NCBI GenBank assembly: GCA_029552245.1
Contig: JAKPDW010000084.1
Span: 124,001 to 188,000, forward strand
Source: Deltaproteobacteria bacterium
GTDB lineage: Bacteria > Desulfobacterota > Desulfomonilia > UBA1062
DNA length: 64,000 bases
Direction: 5' to 3'
In this document: one piece after another, positions 40,193 to 52,234 of the stretch
Numbering within the stretch: the stretch's first letter is position 1
Layout of the letters: the number at the start of each line of letters is the position of its first letter
Translations under genes and position numbers: made by a program
The notes under the pieces: model-generated
Seen by the model: the letters and a program-made list of their open reading frames with translations, nothing else
Database searches by the model: none
What the model was told of the DNA's origin: nothing

Positions 40193-41326
40193 ATGATGAA
40201 CAGGCATGATGGATGCTCGCCGTTGGTGGCGCCTTTCGTGGAGGCAGTGGACAACAGGGAGGAAAGACTCCGGGAATGGGCGTCTCTGGGCGCGCGCCCG
40301 ATGGGCTACCTGTGCACGTACACGCCCGTGGAGCTCATCCATGCGTGCGGTTTCCTCCCGGTAAGGCTGTGGGGTGGAGCGGGGCAGGTGAGAAAGGCCT
40401 ATTCCCACGTGCCGCCGTTTGTCTGCCCGTACCTGAGGCTCGTGGTCGAGCGTGCCGCATGCTCCACGTTCGACTTCCTCGTGGGCATCGTCCAGGGCTA
40501 CACCTGCGACGCGGCCTGCGGGGTCGTGAACGTCTGGAAGAACACCTTCGGAGGCGGTATCTGCATGAACCTGCCGCTGCCCTACAACGAGTCCGCCTCT
40601 GCCAGGACCTTCTTCGCCTCGTGCGCACACGACCTCGCCTCCAGGCTCGAGGCCCTGGGAGGGTGCTTTTCCGAGGAGAGGCTGGGGCGTTCGGTGGGCC
40701 TCTACGAGAGGATCAGGGAGTCTCTGGCCAGGGTGGGCGAGATGTGCAGCGGCGAGAGCGCCTGCCTGAGCGCGATGGACATAAGCGTCGTGGTGCAGGC
40801 GTTCTTCTCCACCCCGCCCGAGACCTACCTTGCCATGCTGCAGGAGCTTGAAGCCCTTCTCCAGGGCGCGCCGCGCGTGAGGCGGGAAGGGGTCCCGGTT
40901 CTCGTCTCGGGCAGCGTCCTGGAGGATGCAGGCGTGATCGGGCTCATCGAGGAAACGGGGTTCAGGGTGGTGGCCTGCGACCTGTGCACCGGGATACGCG
41001 CCTACACGCCCCATGCCGGGACAGGGTCGACGCCCATGGAAAGGCTCGCTTCCAGGCACGCGGCGCGCTTTCCCTGCCCTTCCAGGTCGAGGCCCCAGGA
41101 TCGCGTCCCGCTGCTGGCCGGGCTCGCGAGGGACTCGGGCGCAGCCGGGGTGATCTTCCTGATCCAGAAGTTCTGTACGCCGCACCTGGCAGACCACCCC
41201 CTGGTGGAGCGCGGCCTCAGGGATGCCGGCATCCCGTCCATCCTCATCGAGCTGGACGTGGAGGATACGATCGACGCCCGAACGGCCAACCGGCTCGAGA
41301 CGTTCGCGGCGCTCGTGGGGGGCTGA
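40193..41326 (+). CDS. 2-hydroxyacyl-CoA dehydratase/benzoyl-CoA reductase family, HgdB/BcrC-type subunit
   Basis: A 377-residue subunit of the family that removes water from 2-hydroxyacyl-CoA, or reduces benzoyl-CoA, by ketyl-radical chemistry. The family opening GARPMGYLCTYTPVELIHACGFLPVRL (residues about 34-60) carries a cluster-ligand Cys, with others in YTCDAACGVVNVW (about 103-115) and VIFLIQKFCTPHLADHPLV (about 325). It is followed one base later by the partner subunit. No ATP-dependent activator (HgdC type) or CoA-transferase is nearby, so the reaction cannot be fixed. The first ATG is used because the promoter ends there. Confidence 0.87.
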   Translation: MMNRHDGCSPLVAPFVEAVDNREERLREWASLGARPMGYLCTYTPVELIHACGFLPVRLWGGAGQVRKAYSHVPPFVCPYLRLVVERAACSTFDFLVGIVQGYTCDAACGVVNVWKNTFGGGICMNLPLPYNESASARTFFASCAHDLASRLEALGGCFSEERLGRSVGLYERIRESLARVGEMCSGESACLSAMDISVVVQAFFSTPPETYLAMLQELEALLQGAPRVRREGVPVLVSGSVLEDAGVIGLIEETGFRVVACDLCTGIRAYTPHAGTGSTPMERLASRHAARFPCPSRSRPQDRVPLLAGLARDSGAAGVIFLIQKFCTPHLADHPLVERGLRDAGIPSILIELDVEDTIDARTANRLETFAALVGG

Positions 41327-41327
41327 C

Positions 41328-42584
41328 ATGGCGAAGACGGGCAAGTCGGTCAAGAGGCTGGCCAGCGCAAGGGAACTGGCGACGCTCGTCGCCGGGTACT
41401 ACGAGGAATGTCACCGGGCGAAGGCCGAGGGGGTGCCCGTGGGGTGGATGCCCCCCATGAACGGCGGGATAGAGATCTTCTACGCCATGGGCCTGCAGCC
41501 GGTGTTCCCCGAGAACTTCTCTCCCGTGTGCGCGGCCTTCGGCGCAGCCTTGTCGCATTTCGAGGCGGCTGAGGCCATGGGGTACTCGAGCGACCTGTGC
41601 GGGTACCTCCGCAATATCGTGGGGTACGTTCATTCGGACATGCACGGGCCGGGTGTCCCCCTGCAGGGGCTCCCCGAGCCCGACATGATCATGTCCTTCG
41701 GCGGCGGGTGCGTCCCGGCGATGAAGATCTTCCACATCCTGGAACACAGGTTCCAAGGCGCCGCCGTGTTCAGGGCCGACATGCCGCAGGTGGCGGTGGA
41801 AGAGATCCGTGAGCACCACGTGGAGTACGCCACGAGCGAGATGCACCGCTTCATCGACTTCCTCGAGCGCACCACCGGAAGGAAGCTCGACATGGAGAGG
41901 CTCCGTGAGGTCGTTGCCCTGTCGGACGAGGCCTGCAGGCTCTGGGACGAGATCATGTCGTACCGGAGGTTCTCTCCGGCGCCGATCACGGCCTCCGAGA
42001 TCGGCATCATGTTCGTCATGGTGACCAGGCAGGGTACCAAAACCGCCGTGGAATTCCTCGAGAGGGTTCGCGACGAGGTGGCCCAGAGGGCGCACAAGGG
42101 CATGGGCGCCGTGGAAGACGAACGCGTGAGGCTCTTTTGGGACAACATCCCCCTGTGGCACAACATGGGTATCTTTAACTACTTCGAGAGCTCGGGAGGG
42201 GTGTTCGTGGCCGAGACCTACTCGGCTGCCTGGTCTCTCAGGCTCGACCCCGACGACCCGGTGAGGTCCCTAGCGCTCAAGAGCCTCATGTCGTACCCCC
42301 TCGTGTCCTGTGTCTCCATCGACCGCCGGAAGGAGATGGTCCTGAAGGCATGCCGCGACTACGCCATCGACGGGGCGGTGTTCCACAGGAACAGGTCGTG
42401 CGTGCCCATCTCGCTGGGCCAGGAGGACATCGCCCGGGCGCTCGACGAGGAGCTGGGCATACCATCGGTGTTCATCGACGCCGACCACATGGACAGCAGG
42501 TCCTTCTCCATGGCCCAGTTCCAGGCGAGGGCGGACGCGTTCATGGAGATCATCCTCGAGCGAAAGCGGGCAGGCCGCGCGTAG
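41328..42584 (+). CDS. 2-hydroxyacyl-CoA dehydratase family, HgdA/BcrB-type subunit
   Basis: A 418-residue partner of the preceding subunit. The C-terminal block NRSCVPISLGQEDIARALDEELGIPSVFIDADHMDSRSFSMAQFQARADAF (about 358-405) is the family hallmark, with further Cys in VCAAFG, DLCGYLRN and GGGCVPAMK. The position of the first cluster Cys in HgdA-like proteins reads PPMNGGIEIFYAMG here, without Cys, so cluster ligation may differ. It begins one base after the upstream stop (TGACATG). Substrate unknown; lactoyl-, phenyllactoyl-, hydroxyglutaryl-CoA and aryl-CoA are all candidates. Confidence 0.85.
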   Translation: MAKTGKSVKRLASARELATLVAGYYEECHRAKAEGVPVGWMPPMNGGIEIFYAMGLQPVFPENFSPVCAAFGAALSHFEAAEAMGYSSDLCGYLRNIVGYVHSDMHGPGVPLQGLPEPDMIMSFGGGCVPAMKIFHILEHRFQGAAVFRADMPQVAVEEIREHHVEYATSEMHRFIDFLERTTGRKLDMERLREVVALSDEACRLWDEIMSYRRFSPAPITASEIGIMFVMVTRQGTKTAVEFLERVRDEVAQRAHKGMGAVEDERVRLFWDNIPLWHNMGIFNYFESSGGVFVAETYSAAWSLRLDPDDPVRSLALKSLMSYPLVSCVSIDRRKEMVLKACRDYAIDGAVFHRNRSCVPISLGQEDIARALDEELGIPSVFIDADHMDSRSFSMAQFQARADAFMEIILERKRAGRA

Positions 42585-43013: not shown

Positions 43014-43026
43014 ATTACCGCGTAAT
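43014..43026. promoter_or_regulatory. 13-base palindrome upstream of the sigma-54 promoter
   Basis: ATTAC-CGC-GTAAT, a perfect dyad centred about 61 bases before the predicted start point. It is a candidate binding site for a dimeric regulator of the GRE operon. Confidence 0.45.
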
Positions 43027-43054: not shown

Positions 43055-43069
43055 TGGCACCATCCTTGC
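43055..43069 (+). promoter_or_regulatory. Sigma-54 (-24/-12) promoter of the glycyl radical operon
   Basis: TGGCACCATCCTTGC matches TGGCAC-N5-TTGC, with GG and GC exactly 12 bases apart. The start point would be near 43081, about 100 bases before the GRE ATG. The motif overlaps the left arm of an inverted repeat GGCACCATCC (43056-43065)/GGATGGTGCC (43094-43103). Sigma-54 use implies an NtrC-type activator, which is not encoded in the window. Confidence 0.75.
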
Positions 43070-43183: not shown

Positions 43184-45577
43184 ATGTCCTGTACTGCAAG
43201 GAACAAGGTGCTCAGAGACGAGACGTGCATCAAGTCGCTCGGGAGGGTTGCGGACAAGAGGACGGTGCGTGAAGGTCTCACCATATGCCTGGAGCGCGCC
43301 AGGATCATGACCGACGTGTTCAGGAAAACCGAGGGGGAGCCCATGTGTATCCGCAGGGCGAAGGCCCTTGCCGCGGTCCTGGACACCATGACCCTCTTCA
43401 CGAGGCCGGGGGAGCTGATCGTCGGGTGCTACGCGAGCAGCGACAAGGGTCTTCCCACGTACCCCGAGCTCTACTGGCGCTGGCTCGAGAAGGCGGTGAC
43501 GAAGCTTCCCGACTATGCCGCCATGCTCGACGAGGAGGGGAGGAAGGAACTCTTCGAGATCCACGAGTACTGGAAGCCCTTCTCGATCCACGGCAGGGAA
43601 CGCGACTACATACCGCCCGGCAGGGCGTGGAGGATCGGTGACTTCATCACCGGGGGCTGGATGTGGCAGTGGGAGATATCGACGCCGAACTACGAGAAGA
43701 TCCTCTCCGTTGGTCTTGACGGCATCGTCTCCGAGATCGACAGGATCCTGGAGAGGTTCCTCTCGGACGTCTCCCTGCCGACGGAAAGACGCATGCGGGC
43801 CCTGGACGAGCTGAGGGCGATGAAGATAGCCACGGAGGCCGCCGCGCGGTGGGGCAGGCGGTACGCCTCCATGCTCCAGGAGCACAAGAAGTCGGTGACC
43901 GACCCCGAGAGGGTCCGAGAGCTCGAACGGATGATCGAGGTCTGCCGCCAGGTACCCGCCGGGCCTGCGAGGAACCTGCACGAGGCGCTCCAGTTCTTCA
44001 TCTTCATCACGTTCATCGTCAACTACATAGACCAGCCGCAGGTGGGCAACGGCATCCGGTTCGACAAGGTCATGGGCCCGTTCTTGGAGAAGGACCTCCA
44101 GGACGGGGCCCTCGACAGGGCGAGGGCGAAGGAGCTCGTCGAGGCGGTCTGGGTGAAGATGCAGGAGGGGGGGTACGTGCAGCCTCCGCAATGGGTGAAC
44201 AACGGCGGCGGAGGGCTCGGCTTCCAGACCATCACCCTGGGCGGCACGGACGAGCTGGGAAACGACATCACCAACGAGATGACCTATCTCGCCCTCGAGG
44301 TCACCGGGGAGCTGCAGACCATAGCGCCCCAGATCGCCGTGCGCATCCATGACGGGACCCCGGCGGGGCTCTACCGTGCAATCCTCAAGTGCGCACGGAC
44401 GGGGTGCGCCCAGCCCGCCGTGTTCAACGACAAGGTGAACGTGCCGAGGCTCGTGGAGCTCGGCTGCCCCCTGGAGGAGGCGAGGCTCTACTCGATCAAC
44501 AACTGCATGCAGCCCGTCATCCCGGGCAAGAACTGCCACTACCGCGCCGGCCACAGCGGCGGTCTCGTTCTCCCCATGTGCCTGAACCTGGCGCTCGACG
44601 AGGGGAGGTTCAACGGCAAGGTCGTCGGCGCCCCGACGCCGCCCGTCTCCTCCATGAGGAGCTTCGAGGACGTGTGGAGGGCCTTCTCGGCCCAGGTGGA
44701 GTTCGCCGCGGAGACCCTGGGCATCATATCCAACATCGCGGACGTGCTCATGAAGGAGTACATCCCGAGGCCGTTCCTCTCGGCCGTCCTGGACGGGAAC
44801 ATAGAGCACGGCAGGGACATGCGCGACTGGGAATACCTCGGCCTCAGGCACCACCTGGTCTTCGGGTGCAACAACGCGGCCGACGGGCTCGCCGCGATCA
44901 AGAAACTCGTCTTCGAGGAGGGGAAACTGACCCTCGAGGAGTTCGTGGAGGCTGTCCGGAACAATTACGAGGGGAAGCACGAGAGGGTGCGCCTCATGAT
45001 CGAGCGCGACGCCCCGAAGTTCGGCAACGACGACGACTACGTGGATCTCATCAGCAGGGATATCATGCGCCTGGTGCGCGCCCAGTGCGATAGGTGGACG
45101 GACATCTACGGCAAGCCGTACATCCTCGACGGCACCACGGCATCCGCGCCCATCGGCGCCGGCATGATCCTGCCCGCGACCTTCGACGGACGGAAGGCAG
45201 GGGAACCCTTCCACGACGGCAGCATATCGCCCGTCCAGGGCAGGGACACCTCGGGCCCGACCGCAACCATACGATCCGTCGCCAAGGTGAAGCCGCTCGA
45301 GACGGGCAACTTCCTGCTCAACCAGAAGTTCATGCCGGCATTCTTCGACCCGGAGCACTACGATGTCATGGAGGGCTACCTGAAGACGCTCAAGGACCTG
45401 GGCATCCACCACGTCCAGTTCAACTGCGTCGACGCGAGGACGCTCATCGATGCGAGGGAGAACCCGGAAAAGTACCGCGATCTCATCGTGCGTGTCGCCG
45501 GCTACTCCGCGTACTTCATCGACCTCGACAGGGCCATGCAGGACGAGATCATCAGGCGCACCGAGCAGGCGTTCTGA
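43184..45577 (+). CDS. Glycyl radical enzyme of unassigned specificity
   Basis: A 797-residue pyruvate formate-lyase-like protein. The glycyl radical loop VRVAGYSAYF sits at the C-terminus with Gly 773, 25 residues from the end. The thiyl Cys is 441 in INNCMQPVIPG. Here CMQP replaces the GCVE of eliminases and several decarboxylases (diol, choline, isethionate, hydroxyproline), so the usual general-base Glu is Gln. CxxP loops without Glu are closer to pyruvate formate-lyase and, from memory, the X-succinate synthases. The small subunits of benzylsuccinate synthase are absent. It is controlled by a sigma-54 promoter and followed by its activase; the substrate is unknown. Confidence 0.9.
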   Translation: MSCTARNKVLRDETCIKSLGRVADKRTVREGLTICLERARIMTDVFRKTEGEPMCIRRAKALAAVLDTMTLFTRPGELIVGCYASSDKGLPTYPELYWRWLEKAVTKLPDYAAMLDEEGRKELFEIHEYWKPFSIHGRERDYIPPGRAWRIGDFITGGWMWQWEISTPNYEKILSVGLDGIVSEIDRILERFLSDVSLPTERRMRALDELRAMKIATEAAARWGRRYASMLQEHKKSVTDPERVRELERMIEVCRQVPAGPARNLHEALQFFIFITFIVNYIDQPQVGNGIRFDKVMGPFLEKDLQDGALDRARAKELVEAVWVKMQEGGYVQPPQWVNNGGGGLGFQTITLGGTDELGNDITNEMTYLALEVTGELQTIAPQIAVRIHDGTPAGLYRAILKCARTGCAQPAVFNDKVNVPRLVELGCPLEEARLYSINNCMQPVIPGKNCHYRAGHSGGLVLPMCLNLALDEGRFNGKVVGAPTPPVSSMRSFEDVWRAFSAQVEFAAETLGIISNIADVLMKEYIPRPFLSAVLDGNIEHGRDMRDWEYLGLRHHLVFGCNNAADGLAAIKKLVFEEGKLTLEEFVEAVRNNYEGKHERVRLMIERDAPKFGNDDDYVDLISRDIMRLVRAQCDRWTDIYGKPYILDGTTASAPIGAGMILPATFDGRKAGEPFHDGSISPVQGRDTSGPTATIRSVAKVKPLETGNFLLNQKFMPAFFDPEHYDVMEGYLKTLKDLGIHHVQFNCVDARTLIDARENPEKYRDLIVRVAGYSAYFIDLDRAMQDEIIRRTEQAF

Positions 45578-45619: not shown

Positions 45620-46540
45620 ATGGACATGAACCCGCGCGAGGCGAAGGGGACGATTTTCAACATACAGCATTTCAGCATCCACGACGGCCCGGGCATACGC
45701 ACCACCGTCTTCCTCAAGGGCTGTCCCTTGAGGTGCGCCTGGTGCTCCAACCCCGAGTCGATCTCCAGCGCCGTCCAGATACGGGTAACGCCTCATCGGT
45801 GTGAAGGCTGCGGCCGTTGCGTGGCGGCATGCCCGAGGGGGGCCCTGAGCCTGGTGGGCGGCCGCGTGAGGTTCGACCGCAGGGGGTGCGACGATTGCCT
45901 GGTGTGCGTGGACGCGTGCGTCAACGGCTGCATATCGACGGTCGGCACCGTGATAGACGCCCAAAGCCTCGTGGAGAGGCTCGTCAAAGACCGTCCCTTC
46001 TACGAGCACACCGGCGGGGGTGTGACGGTGTCGGGCGGGGAGCCGCTCTCCCAGCCCGCGTTCACCCGTTGTGTGCTCGAGGGGCTCCACCGGCTCGGCA
46101 TAGAGACCGCGCTCGACACGTCCGGATGCTCGCCGTGGGAGGCGTTCGAGGAGGTGCTCCCGCACGTGGACCTCGTGCTGTTCGACATCAAGCACCCGGA
46201 CCCGGCGAGGCATGTGGAGGCCACACATGCCGACAACGCGCTCATCCTGGAGAACCTCCGCAGGCTCGCCGGGCAGGTCGCCATTTGGACCCGGACGCCG
46301 CTGGTCCCCGGGTACAACGACGGCCCCGAGGTCACCGACGAGATCGTCTCGATGGCCCGCGAGGTCGGCGCAAAGCGGTGCTGGTTCCTCCCCCTGCACC
46401 GGTGGGGAGAGCACAAGTACGAGTGCCTCGGCATGCCCAACCCGTATCCGGCGTTCGAGGACGTGTCCCCCGAGATGCTCGAAGCGCTCAGGAGGCGCTA
46501 CCTCCACATGGACGGCTTCGTCCTCATCGAGAAGTCCTGA
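45620..46540 (+). CDS. Glycyl radical enzyme activase (radical SAM)
   Basis: A 306-residue activase installing the glycyl radical on the enzyme encoded 42 bases upstream. IFNIQHFSIHDGPGIRTTVFLKGCPLRCAWCSNPES carries the CX3CX2C motif (about 35-42). The inserted ferredoxin-like domain has two [4Fe-4S] motifs: CEGCGRCVAAC and CDDCLVCVDAC (about 61-100). The VSGGEPL and DTSGC SAM/substrate loops follow. The two-cluster insert is shared by activases of dehydratases, decarboxylases and succinate synthases but not of pyruvate formate-lyase, and so argues against simple PFL. Confidence 0.95.
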   Translation: MDMNPREAKGTIFNIQHFSIHDGPGIRTTVFLKGCPLRCAWCSNPESISSAVQIRVTPHRCEGCGRCVAACPRGALSLVGGRVRFDRRGCDDCLVCVDACVNGCISTVGTVIDAQSLVERLVKDRPFYEHTGGGVTVSGGEPLSQPAFTRCVLEGLHRLGIETALDTSGCSPWEAFEEVLPHVDLVLFDIKHPDPARHVEATHADNALILENLRRLAGQVAIWTRTPLVPGYNDGPEVTDEIVSMAREVGAKRCWFLPLHRWGEHKYECLGMPNPYPAFEDVSPEMLEALRRRYLHMDGFVLIEKS

Positions 46541-48112: not shown

Positions 48113-48182
48113 CGTGCATGAGGGTTCGATACAGGTATCCCGTCTACGGCGCAGGTCAAACCCCGGCCGGGGGGCAAGGGCG

Positions 48183-50051
48183 ATGAGGGTCGCGCTCGTC
48201 CAGCTTCCTCTCCAGTCGCACGACTACGCCTACTCCCTCGAGAACGTCCCGCTCGCATCCGGTTACCTCGCCTCTCGGCTGGCAAGGTGCGGCGCAGCGA
48301 AGATCCATGTGGAGATCTGTCCCATGGAGGTCGCGAACCTCGGGGGGGATGCCGCCATAGAGGAATGGATCGTCCAGACGCGGCCTGACGTGGTGGGCAT
48401 GAGTTGTTCCGTGTGGAACGTCGAGCGCTCCCTGCATATCTGCGCGAGGACGGCGAGGCGCTTGGGCGGCGTCACCTTCGTGATGGGGGGGCCTGAGGTG
48501 GCCGTCGACAACCACCTCCTCCTTCGCCACGAGGCCTTCTCCCTGGGAGTGACAGGGGAGGGCGAGGATACCTTCCTGGAACTCGTGGAGTCTCTCCGCG
48601 AGGGGGCCGAGGTGCCGGGCGGGATCCCCGGGCTCCTTGCGAAGCGGGAGGGACGCATCCAGTGGACCGGCCCCAGGCCTTTGGTGGGGAGGCTCGACGA
48701 CATAGCCTCTCCGTACCTCTCGGGGCTCCTCCAGGTATCGTTCGCAGGCACGATGCTCATGGAGACCCTCAGGGGGTGCCCCATGCGCTGCACGTACTGC
48801 CACTACCACAAGAGCGCGCCCTTCGTCCGCGCCTTCTCCCTCGAGAGGGTGGCAAGGGAGGTGGCCTGGGGGAGAGAGAGGGGTGTGGGCGAGATCACGC
48901 TGGTGGACCCGTGCTTCGCGAAGAGGCCGGGGGTGTTGGAACTGCTCGAGGCCGTGGTCCGGGAGGGGTCGGACGAGCTTGCCCTGAGCCTGGAGCTCAA
49001 CGCCGAGGACGTGAGTCCAGGCCTCGTGGACGCCCTCGCGAAAGCCCGCCTCGTTCACGTGGAGGTCGGGCTCCAGAGCGTGAACGAGGCGACGCTCGCC
49101 ACCGTGGGCCGCAAGTTCGACAGGGACGCCTTCACCAGGGGTGTCAGGGCCCTCAGGTCGGCCCGTGCGAAGGTGACCACGGACGTCATGGTGGGCCTGC
49201 CGGGCGACGGCCCGGGCGACGTGATGCGAGCCGTGCGTTTCGTGCTCGACAACGGCCTGTGCGACGAGTTGGCCATGCACCCCTTGTGCGTGCTGCCGGG
49301 CACGGTGCTCAGGTCTCAGGCCGAGGCGCTCGGCATCGAGTACATGGAGGATCCGCCCTACCTTCTGACGCGCACCCCGACCATGAGCGCCGCGGACGTG
49401 CGAGAGGTGATCTCGTGGTGCGAGGACGCGCTGTGCACCGATCTCTTCCCCGTGGAGATGCCGCTCATGGCGGGCGGCGCCCCCGTGCGAGGGGACAGGC
49501 GGGGGTGTTTCGTGCAGAGGATCGTGCTCGCCGGCGCGGGAGAGGGGGTGACCTGCGAGCCATCGCGCATAGGCCAGGCCCTGTGCATCGAGCTGAGAGA
49601 GGCTGCTTGGCTCGAGCGGGAAGACCTCTCCTGCTCGCTGAAAACCCTGCTCTCCGAGAACCCCTACACCCTGGTGAGCTGGATCGTGCCCGAGCGCCTG
49701 TTCGTGCCGGGGAAGACCCTGGAACGGATAAAGGCCCTGAGCCACAGGGCGCCTCACCCCATAGACCGGGACTACATGTCCACCTACACGCCCGTGCGTT
49801 CCCTCCAGGTCTTTCTCGAGGTCGAGACGCGACCGGGAGGCCCGTCCTACGTCATGGTGCCGCTCGAGCGCGACCCCTCGCGTCCCCTGTGGGCGGGACT
49901 CCCACGAGACGCAGGCGGCGACGAGGAAGAGAGGGTGCAGGGGATCGTCTCCTCGCTCGTGGGCGAAGGCCTCACCGTGCGCTTCCATGACCTCGAACCC
50001 CGAGAGCCCGGCCCCATCGCCGAGCGGCTCTGCACCCTGGTGGTCGGATGA
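48183..50051 (+). CDS. B12-binding radical SAM protein
   Basis: A 622-residue protein with an N-terminal cobalamin-binding-type domain (MRVALVQLPLQSHDYAYSLE, VVGMSCSVWNVE near 72, FVMGGPEV near 100) and a radical SAM core with RGCPMRCTYCHYHKS (Cys at about 201, 205, 208), LELNAEDVSPGLVDAL and HVEVGLQSVNEATLATVGRKF, followed by a C-terminal extension of about 200 residues (430-622) that I do not recognise. Members of this fold act as methylases, methylthiolases or rearranging enzymes. It is convergent with another radical SAM gene, and both could act in one pathway; that is inference. Confidence 0.87.
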   Translation: MRVALVQLPLQSHDYAYSLENVPLASGYLASRLARCGAAKIHVEICPMEVANLGGDAAIEEWIVQTRPDVVGMSCSVWNVERSLHICARTARRLGGVTFVMGGPEVAVDNHLLLRHEAFSLGVTGEGEDTFLELVESLREGAEVPGGIPGLLAKREGRIQWTGPRPLVGRLDDIASPYLSGLLQVSFAGTMLMETLRGCPMRCTYCHYHKSAPFVRAFSLERVAREVAWGRERGVGEITLVDPCFAKRPGVLELLEAVVREGSDELALSLELNAEDVSPGLVDALAKARLVHVEVGLQSVNEATLATVGRKFDRDAFTRGVRALRSARAKVTTDVMVGLPGDGPGDVMRAVRFVLDNGLCDELAMHPLCVLPGTVLRSQAEALGIEYMEDPPYLLTRTPTMSAADVREVISWCEDALCTDLFPVEMPLMAGGAPVRGDRRGCFVQRIVLAGAGEGVTCEPSRIGQALCIELREAAWLEREDLSCSLKTLLSENPYTLVSWIVPERLFVPGKTLERIKALSHRAPHPIDRDYMSTYTPVRSLQVFLEVETRPGGPSYVMVPLERDPSRPLWAGLPRDAGGDEEERVQGIVSSLVGEGLTVRFHDLEPREPGPIAERLCTLVVG

Positions 50052-50374: not shown

Positions 50375-51832
50375 TCAGTAGTACTCGAGGAGGCCGCTCC
50401 TGATGGACTCCGCCTGGATGATCCTCTTCCAGGCCGCGACCCGCGAAGGGTCCCCGGAGATCCGTGCGGCCCTTTCGTACACGAGGTCCGCCTCCATTGC
50501 GGCCGCGCCCCCGCCAGGGAAGCTCTCGGTGAAGAGCCGGAGCTCACCTGCGTCCAGCGCTGTCGCGCCCAGGCACGTGGCCCTCTCGATGACGAGCGTC
50601 CTGCCGGAAGAGAGGGTGATCTCGGTGAAGGGGTGCAGGTACGAGTGGGTCGGCCGTATCGTGGCCAGGCTGTAGGCGACCTTGACCTCCAAGCCGTCGG
50701 TGTGGATGAGGCCCAGGAGATCGGCGTCGATGCTCATGCGTCTCCCCTTGTTGGAGACATCCCACCGGCGGCCATCTGTCCCGCCGGCGCGTAGAGACTC
50801 CTGGACCGAGGAGAGGACGCGGCCTTCCCCCTCGAGGTGCACGGTGCGGATCAGCCCCGCCTCGGTCACGGTCTCGAAGGGCTTGGCAACGTACCGCGCC
50901 CAGCGCCTCCTCGATGCCCGCGCCTGGAACCTGTGCCTATAGATCGCGCTGCAGTAGTTGACCGGGATCGCCAGGCCCGTGTCCTGTGCGTACGCCAAGA
51001 ACGACAGGGCCGCGAGCTCCGACTCGAGGACCGCTGAGAGCGGTCCGTGGAGGAAGGTGTATCCCCTCTTCGCGAGCCTGTCCTTGTTGAACCTCGTGCA
51101 CCTGATCTGGTGGAGGTTGAGGTGCCTGACGCCGAGGTCTGAAAGCGTCCGGGAGATCTTCTCGAGGGTCTCGAGGTCCTCCGGCACGGCAGGTATCTCG
51201 ACCGTCACCGTTGGGATGATCTTTAGAGCTGTCCGCACGGCCTCGAGGTCGTAGCCCGAGGCCGCGATGTTGAAGCGGATCTCGTCGAGACCCGCGTCCC
51301 TCAGGCGGGAGGCGAGTTCCCTGCTGAGCAGCTTCCCGTTGGTGTACATCCACAGGTACACATCGCCCCCGAGCCTTCGCCTCACGGCCTCTATGAAGGA
51401 GAGGGTCCTCTCGGGGTGCACCAGCGGCTCTCCCCCGCTGATGCTCACGCCCCTGAACCCGAACCGCTCGACGTATTCGGCGTATTCCAGGGGGTCTGAG
51501 AAGGTGAGGGTCGAGGTGCCCGGCATGTCCGCGTCGTCCTGGGGGGCGGGGCAGAAGAAGCACGAGGCGTTGCACAGGTTGTTGACGAAGAGGCACGACC
51601 ACGACCCCTCTCCGCAGAGCGTGCACCCGGGTGAAAGCGGCCCCAGGTGGGGCTTCGAACCCTTGAAGGAGTACGATACGCCCCGGCCGAGCCTTGCCAG
51701 GAGTCCCTTCCTCGTCTCCTCGCTCCTGCGGGCGCCTTCTGCCGAGACCCACGGGATGCCGTCGGATGCGGACCCGAGTTCTTCTGTGTTGAGCCGTACG
51801 ATCGCTTCGTGGTCGAGTTCGGGAACCGTCAT
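50375..51832 (-). CDS. Radical SAM protein with N-terminal Cys cluster
   Basis: A 485-residue radical SAM protein. Before the core, GCTLCGEGSWSCLFVNNLCNASCFFCPAP (about 69-97) contains the CX3CX2C motif (CNASCFFC) preceded by three more cysteines, as in PflA-like proteins with an extra Fe-S or Zn site. VSISGGEPLVHPERTLSFIE and LDEIRFNIAASGYDLE follow in the barrel. The C-terminal 200 residues are not recognised. ATG at 51832 is preferred to GTG at 51847, with GAGGGTG upstream. No substrate clue. Confidence 0.85.
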   Translation of the reverse strand: MTVPELDHEAIVRLNTEELGSASDGIPWVSAEGARRSEETRKGLLARLGRGVSYSFKGSKPHLGPLSPGCTLCGEGSWSCLFVNNLCNASCFFCPAPQDDADMPGTSTLTFSDPLEYAEYVERFGFRGVSISGGEPLVHPERTLSFIEAVRRRLGGDVYLWMYTNGKLLSRELASRLRDAGLDEIRFNIAASGYDLEAVRTALKIIPTVTVEIPAVPEDLETLEKISRTLSDLGVRHLNLHQIRCTRFNKDRLAKRGYTFLHGPLSAVLESELAALSFLAYAQDTGLAIPVNYCSAIYRHRFQARASRRRWARYVAKPFETVTEAGLIRTVHLEGEGRVLSSVQESLRAGGTDGRRWDVSNKGRRMSIDADLLGLIHTDGLEVKVAYSLATIRPTHSYLHPFTEITLSSGRTLVIERATCLGATALDAGELRLFTESFPGGGAAAMEADLVYERAARISGDPSRVAAWKRIIQAESIRSGLLEYY

Positions 51833-52234
51833 GAGAGACACCCTCACATCGGCGTTCCTTCTCGTGTCTTCCGGACACCCCCTATAGGGAAAAAACCGGC
51901 CCTGGTCAACAGGATGCAGCCCTTCAGGGCGCTCCGGCGACGCTCGACCCTGGCCGCGGGAGGAACCGCCCGCTTGTGGGGTTTTCGGCTGCAGGATGTC
52001 TTTGTCAAGACTCCCTCACCCGAAAACGCGAACGGATCCACAGCGTGCCTGGGGCGAGGGGGGTTCCCGCTTCGCCGGGCGCTCGAGAGCCAGGCTCGAC
52101 GTCCCGGGAAAATCCAGTGTGACCCCGGTGTCTCGAGTGCGCCGGTCTTCCTGCCGAAATACCAGTTGAACGAGGCCGGGGACTTCTGGTAGAGGGTCGG
52201 CCGGGAAACACACTGCAACGGGAGATATCTCATC
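51833..52234. other. Divergent gap, no promoter assigned
   Basis: Separates the radical SAM gene from the DUF486 gene. It must hold two promoters, but none stands out. Confidence 0.35.

Follow-up and report, generated by a model that had tools for sequence, protein, structure and literature searches.

The stretch of DNA analyzed here, 64,000 nucleotides in length (hereafter, the window), encodes a glycyl radical enzyme (GRE) in which the residue two positions downstream of the thiyl-radical Cys (Cys+2) is a Gln, in the place held by the general-base Glu in eliminases. Which reaction could such an active site support, and in which pathway would it take part?

An intact GRE with Gln in place of the eliminase Glu

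The GRE gene is intact, with zero internal stops (Table 1), and displays the hallmarks of the superfamily, namely, an RV[AS]GYSA Gly loop near the C-terminus (VRVAGYSAYF around Gly773 in the window GRE), a thiyl Cys, and a radical SAM activase encoded nearby. The initial annotation had placed the radical Gly at residue 773 and the thiyl Cys at residue 441, with N-N before and M-Q-P after the latter; both residues were located in the 797-aa translation, in which Cys441 is surrounded by SINNCMQPVIPGK, and the loop is conserved in the orthologues described below. The proposed substitution of the eliminase Glu was borne out as well: codon 443 specifies Gln (the CMQP class, residues 441 to 444), whereas Cys+2 is Glu in the seven aligned eliminases (glycerol dehydratase, propanediol dehydratase, CutC, trans-4-hydroxyproline dehydratase, HplG, IseG, and 9rco) and Ser in BssA/TutD and MasD. 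Judged from its sequence, the window GRE is an intact, uncharacterized enzyme with an active site devoid of the Cys+2 acid of known lyases and decarboxylases.

Table 1. Coordinates of the GRE and associated features in the window.
Feature	Position	Strand	Description
2-hydroxyacyl-CoA dehydratase-type subunit (HadC/HgdB-like)	40193..41326	+	upstream neighbor; functional tie to GRE unproven
Second dehydratase-type subunit (HadB-like)	41328..42584	+	upstream neighbor; start not fixed, longest ORF from 41223
Sigma54 -24/-12 type promoter	43055..43069	+	TGGCAC-N5-TTGC; sole exact match in 64 kb
GRE, CMQP class	43184..45577	+	797 aa; profile searches, alignment, and tree
Thiyl-radical Cys441 codon	44504..44506	+	loop N439-N440-C441-M442-Q443-P444
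Gln443 codon	44510..44512	+	aligned with the Glu position of eliminases and decarboxylases
Radical Gly773 codon	45500..45502	+	RVAGYSA
Radical SAM activase	45620..46540	+	306 aa; CxxxCxxC and two four-Cys ferredoxin-like motifs

The activase passes TIGR02494 (PFLE_PFLC subfamily; 312.6 versus a cut-off of 174.35 bits) and carries the CxxxCxxC motif at residues 35-42, followed by four-Cys clusters at residues 61-71 and 90-100, in agreement with the two-cluster insert previously ascribed to it. Two more radical SAM proteins are encoded at 48114-50051 (plus strand) and 50375-51847 (minus strand), both scoring below equivalog cut-offs; one of them is B12-binding methyltransferase-like (best NCBIfam match KedN5, 105.8 bits, below cut-off) and the other is MoaA-like in its N-terminal part only. 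The dehydratase-type genes upstream of the GRE were not relied on as its partners; beside a CMQP GRE, they are kept only in the same-genus locus L001.

CMQP orthologues and a wider Glu-less clade

A scan of GTDB-species contigs uncovered 13 CMQP loci, 64-84% identical to the window GRE by best segment, in MAGs labelled Smithella, Syntrophaceae, Desulfobacterales, Desulfobacteraceae, or Deltaproteobacteria. The motif INNCMQP[VI]IPG[KR]N.HYRAGH is present in all 14 sequences (the window GRE and the 13 loci). Genome searches contributed three more CMQP genes from two further genomes (one in G393 and two in G375), which brings the count to 17 genes in 14 genomes; outside the window, genes were delimited by simple ORF calling, and G420, G421, G423, G424, and G426 were taken as G024, G023, G341, G168, and G036, respectively, based on identical match coordinates. 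The replacement of the catalytic Glu by Gln might be expected of a catalytically dead or structural relic, but we consider such decay very improbable, given that Cys, Gly, and loop are invariant in 14/14 sequences, that an activase gene adjoins that of the GRE both in the window and at the loci of several relatives, and that dN/dS between the window GRE and its L001 orthologue (84% identical) is 0.14. The same low dN/dS, together with the sameness of the essential residues in the 14 sequences and the three further copies, places the CMQP loop beyond chance.

More distant relatives (38-47% identical) have Y, F, L, V, R, or S, and never E, at Cys+2, and mostly an [IV]PGK loop. At least 24 of the 395 genomes in the phylum sample have a relative at E<=1e-150, counts from the phylum searches being lower bounds because at most 2 first-look candidates per genome were scored. 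In an IQ-TREE phylogeny of 46 sequences, all distant relatives but L067 join the CMQP genes (UFBoot 93), with CMQP and INNCMxP GREs grouping at UFBoot 100; the X-succinate synthases (XSS) form a separate group (UFBoot 100), and the order of XSS, the CMQP-containing clade, and the Glu eliminases is poorly supported (38). By alignment, the wider clade is broad and un-named, with Cys+2 never being Glu among the members aligned. This clade-wide loss of the Cys+2 acid speaks against both standard elimination and PCET decarboxylation; the best remaining precedent is radical addition. Addition is further favored by the Met at Cys+1, as in XSS, and by an Arg at Cys+13, which occurs in every CMQP sequence aligned and in 18 of the 22 other clade members.

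The genomic surroundings of the wider clade are varied. Some relatives adjoin ABC transporters with Peripla_BP_6 binding proteins. In L099 (3957-8586), an MCM-like mutase and a B12-binding subunit are encoded immediately after a 47%-identical Glu-less GRE (CMYP), the match to which has one in-frame TAG. In L098 (1128-16068), a CMRW-type GRE lies amid biotin carboxyltransferases, four acyl-CoA dehydrogenase-type ORFs, a thiolase, an HMG-CoA-synthase-like protein, and an HGD-D pair that resembles the dehydratase-type pair at 40193-42584 of the window, even though this GRE is only a distant relative. Finally, G246, an unusually GRE-rich genome of 2.8 Mb, has 34 first-look GRE candidates, at least 11 AssA matches (some partial), and at least 2 GREs of the Glu-less clade.

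Comparison with characterized GREs

The best NCBIfam match of the window GRE was the subfamily model TIGR01774 (485.7 bits, below the cut-off of 678.2); this and several lyase equivalog models were matched strongly, all under cut-off, and none of the equivalog cut-offs (including those of HypD, CutC, HpsG, and HpfG) was reached. The active site of PFL contains two adjacent Cys; the window GRE has a single one and scores 97.7 bits to pyr_form_ly_1 against a cut-off of 994.2. Scores to the arylacetate decarboxylase models were 319.8 (IAD) and 229.9 (HPAD) bits, with cut-offs of 1100 and 1150. Among solved chains, glycerol dehydratase scored best (405 bits, 1r8w), followed by propanediol dehydratase and TutD, the closest chains being ~27-30% identical to the window GRE; 9rco, for which the sequence search gave just the name 'Glycyl radical protein', proved to be a propanediol dehydratase of the Glu type. 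The Foldseek matches listed for the AlphaFold model were all GREs, with propanediol and glycerol dehydratases first and BSS from rank 8, a ranking that cannot separate GRE classes because the active site is poorly modeled (mean pLDDT 66.9). The scores, the identities, and the placement in the tree apart from XSS and Glu eliminases sustain the claim of the initial annotation that no characterized class fits, and no high identity to a characterized decarboxylase or succinate synthase was found; its suggestion of aryl substrates received no support in the present analysis. Among the papers listed by searches of the open-licence PMC literature, we recognized none placing a CMQP GRE beside ass genes, and a literature search found none on a Gln mutant of CutC.

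The PFL2-type eliminases (glycerol and 1,2-propanediol dehydratases, CutC, HypD, HplG, and IseG) are the closest solved structures by score and share the TIGR02494-type activase with the window GRE, which nevertheless falls under every equivalog cut-off and differs from them in catalytic residues. In glycerol dehydratase, D447, H281, and H164 have catalytic roles; their equivalents in the window GRE are A455, Q286, and a gap. The Glu general base itself, which in IseG deprotonates the substrate OH according to an excerpt of the source (PMC6453916), is replaced by Gln. The solved-structure matches, with glycerol and propanediol dehydratases at the top, and the ABC transporters beside some wider-clade relatives would suit a lyase or dehydratase that lacks the Glu and acts on a polar metabolite, the link to alkanes then reflecting nothing but shared syntrophic or oil-associated hosts. 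With the Cys+2 Glu and the equivalents of all three glycerol dehydratase residues missing, we find this unlikely, and the genomic context described below also bears on it. The arylacetate decarboxylases (HPAD and IAD) are likewise GREs with a thiyl loop but, in the excerpted account of PMC6181972, keep the Cys+2 Glu as a partner of the thiyl Cys, whereas the window GRE has Gln.

XSS (BssA/TutD and MasD/AssA) resemble the CMQP GREs in the GRE fold, in a single thiyl Cys followed by Met, which is absent from eliminases, and in a Cys+2 other than Glu; moreover, AssA and the CMQP GRE share genomes, gene islands, and the type of sigma54 site (see below). As described in part of PMC12358834, XSS accommodate one carboxylate of fumarate in the oxyanion hole of the Cys loop and the other on Arg508/Arg492, Gln707/Glu690 being close by. 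The CMQP GREs fall in a clade separate from XSS, have Gln rather than Ser at Cys+2, and lack the other BSS/MASS fumarate contacts, with G456 at the position of R508/R492, T651 at Q707/E690, H556 at W613, and L558 at N615/T598 in the window GRE. The nearest Arg is R454 at Cys+13, compared with Cys+15 in XSS, the GRE loop being two residues shorter. Succinate-synthase small subunits, reported from the outset to be missing, did not surface either: in the window, a scan for short Cys-rich ORFs found none within 2.5 kb, apart from those inside the GRE itself, whereas in the positive controls it recovered ORFs up- and downstream of AssA (G000, G024, and G033). Across 15 CMQP loci, such ORFs are scattered and unrelated, bar a similar 68-aa Cys-rich ORF at L005:7856-8062 and L012:8436-8642, which in these two loci alone precedes the CMQP GRE by ~1.4-2 kb. 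Membership in XSS was therefore rejected on account of the separate clade, the missing fumarate-contact side chains, and the missing small subunits. Since the residues of the Glu eliminases and the fumarate contacts of XSS are both missing, neither known mechanism is simply transferable. The CMQP GREs have the invariant polar residues H452, Y453, R454, H457, H556, and H557, along with a near-invariant E164.

Association with alkane degradation genes

Fumarate addition by AssA/Mas is viewed as the principal known route by which n-alkanes enter anaerobic metabolism. The genome from which the window derives has five Gly_radical matches, one of which is a MasD/AssA-type GRE on contig C58 (1256.8 bits to MasD 9o8u). 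The C58 operon, with gene names assigned by Pfam on orthologues and by reading of the sequences, encodes a B12-binding protein, an MCM-like mutase, MeaB, MmgE/PrpD, an activase, small Cys-rich proteins, a MoxR-type ATPase, a VWA protein, and an AMP ligase. In the class sample of 42 genomes, AssA was found in 9 and the CMQP GRE in 5, all five with AssA (Fisher 1.5e-4; here and below, Fisher values overstate independence, as MAGs share ancestry). In the phylum sample, AssA is present in at least 18 of the 395 genomes, the CMQP GRE in at least 7, and both in at least 6, with the seventh CMQP genome, G168, having AssA fragments 77-79% identical. Overall, an AssA/MasD-type (1-methylalkyl)succinate synthase occurs in 12 of the 14 CMQP genomes (>=59% identity, fragments counted); the same search did not find AssA in G428 and G429, which is what a polar-metabolite lyase independent of alkanes would predict. 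A Glu-type GRE of the window organism, used as a control, was detected in 25 of the 42 class genomes (7/9 with AssA and 18/33 without). The lack of a comparable pattern for this enzyme favors a place for the CMQP GRE in the alkane pathway and speaks against the polar-metabolite lyase.

No alkane genes adjoin the GRE in the window. In five other genomes, the CMQP GRE and AssA lie on the same contig, separated by 13.4 (G024), 8.9 (G036), 9.3 (G033), 19.0 (G422), and 13.7 kb (G425). In G024, the GRE and activase face a PYC_OADA/carboxyltransferase pair of the transcarboxylase type, a sigma54 activator, and the mutase-AssA operon. In G425, a single strand encodes the mutase, AssA, ECH, NMO, bioBFDA, and the CMQP GRE, the latter being co-directional with AssA. 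In the Smithella-type loci L007, L008, and L113, the GRE and activase are followed by a sigma54 activator and bio genes.

A conserved branched-chain acyl-CoA cluster accompanies two other Smithella-type CMQP GREs (L006:282-9857 and L114:12471-19899); in L006, the carboxyltransferase, biotin carboxylase, and AtuA were recognized by Pfam, and the L114 genes partly by similarity and partly by size and position. Separately, the MCM-like mutase of the alkane island in L002 (6685-8487) and its orthologues have P[YF]TAGN.PF.[FY]W in place of what we take to be the usual MCM substrate-loop sequence, and keep the Arg before the YIFPP motif.

A putative sigma54 promoter site common to the GRE and the AssA operon

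Promoters were sought with TGGCAY-N5-TTGC, the sigma54 -24/-12 consensus, as an exact pattern, so that the counts are independent of any consensus weights. The window contains one match (0.06 expected in 64 kb), 115-129 nt upstream of the GRE start, and the whole genome has 29 sites, compared with 4 for a control pattern. The exact 15-mer TGGCACCATCCTTGC occurs at only two sites in the genome, one before the GRE and the other before the mutase-AssA operon of C58. A site within 400 bp upstream was found for 10 of 16 CMQP genes as opposed to 5 of 177 neighboring control genes (Fisher 1.3e-9), and 4 of these 5 control sites head B12-binding/mutase or PYC_OADA operons, which belong to the same pathway. 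L013 stands outside the 16 loci, with its N-terminal part masked, and has a site at 181-196. By the exact pattern within 400 bp, sites were absent upstream of the CMQP GREs of L005, L006, L011, L012, L109, and L114; among other GREs tested, 10 of 11 lacked a site. Beyond the sigma54 core, no upstream activator site shared by the GRE and AssA operons was found. A perfect palindrome, ATTAC-CGC-GTAAT, lies at 43014-43026, ~40 bp upstream of the sigma54 site, and is confined to the window among the loci checked.

The assignment of the CMQP GRE to a putative sigma54-controlled alkane regulon is well supported, and it is strong for Syntrophaceae-type and Smithella genomes; in related bacteria, the enzyme appears to be switched on together with the anaerobic alkane genes. 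Because the GRE and AssA of the window organism are on different contigs, the predicted regulon membership of the window GRE itself rests on its promoter and its orthologues. An island and a sigma54 site shared with alkane operons in several genera count against a polar-metabolite lyase that merely cohabits with alkane degraders.

Proposed reaction

Our best reading, to which we assign a probability of somewhat less than two in five, is that of a functional GRE that represents a new class of active site devoid of the Glu, acts inside or beside the alkane fumarate-addition pathway, and performs a radical addition to an acceptor. The chemistry would probably be non-eliminating, a C-C bond-forming addition, on a carboxylate-bearing substrate. 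By analogy with the family mechanism, the activase would install the radical on Gly773, and Cys441 would abstract a hydrogen from the substrate. Lacking an acid or base at Cys+2, the enzyme would not drive the substrate radical to lose water, ammonia, sulfite, or CO2, and the radical may instead add to the acceptor. An unsaturated dicarboxylate, for instance fumarate, is the most likely acceptor and would be bound by the Cys loop together with Arg454, the putative carboxylate-binding residue. Expression would be sigma54-driven, together with the mutase-AssA and transcarboxylase operons. Placement in the alkane pathway is favored by the co-occurrence with AssA, the shared contigs in five genomes, the sigma54 sites of 10/16 genes, and the L099 relative, encoded directly before a B12 mutase and B12-binding subunit. 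Against addition, however, stand the missing fumarate-contact residues and small subunits, the poorly modeled active site, the invariant H452, Y453, H457, H556, and H557, which are unlike a hydrocarbon pocket, and the transporters beside some relatives, which suggest polar substrates in the wider clade; the alkane connection itself is weakened by G428 and G429 and by the position of the window GRE away from any alkane gene.

The polar invariant residues and the transporters render it nearly as likely that the enzyme is part of the same regulon and yet converts a carboxylic acid arising as an intermediate or by-product of the pathway (by rearrangement, isomerization, C-C cleavage, or decarboxylation), with His or Glu164 replacing the usual Glu. 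Besides these residues, including R454, such a role would match the acyl-CoA dehydrogenases, enoyl-CoA hydratases, biotin carboxyltransferases, and bio genes at several loci, the Smithella copies in L006 and L114 with their acyl-CoA dehydrogenase, carboxylase, enoyl-CoA hydratase, and AtuA-type gene, and the HadBC-like genes upstream of the window GRE. Nevertheless, the accepted alkylsuccinate route has no obvious need for a second radical enzyme, and the known GRE decarboxylases, as far as the excerpt of PMC6181972 extends, keep the Cys+2 Glu.

What is new here is the link of the CMQP GRE to anaerobic alkane degradation, as suggested by co-occurrence, gene islands, and sigma54 sites. Carried further, the radical addition reading would amount to a second, structurally distinct route by which alkanes or other compounds with unactivated C-H bonds are joined to a dicarboxylate, through a single-subunit GRE class without Fe-S small subunits. 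Oil degraders, both methanogenic and sulfate-dependent, would use this class beside AssA, and it would supply the first member of a broad Glu-less clade to be studied, an extension that we regard as doubtful. The Cys+2 residue provides a simple sequence test for metagenomes, distinguishing eliminating and decarboxylating GREs from the un-named Glu-less clade. If true, a second radical enzyme in the AssA islands and in their apparent sigma54 regulon would represent an activating enzyme that has been overlooked or else a pathway step not yet known.
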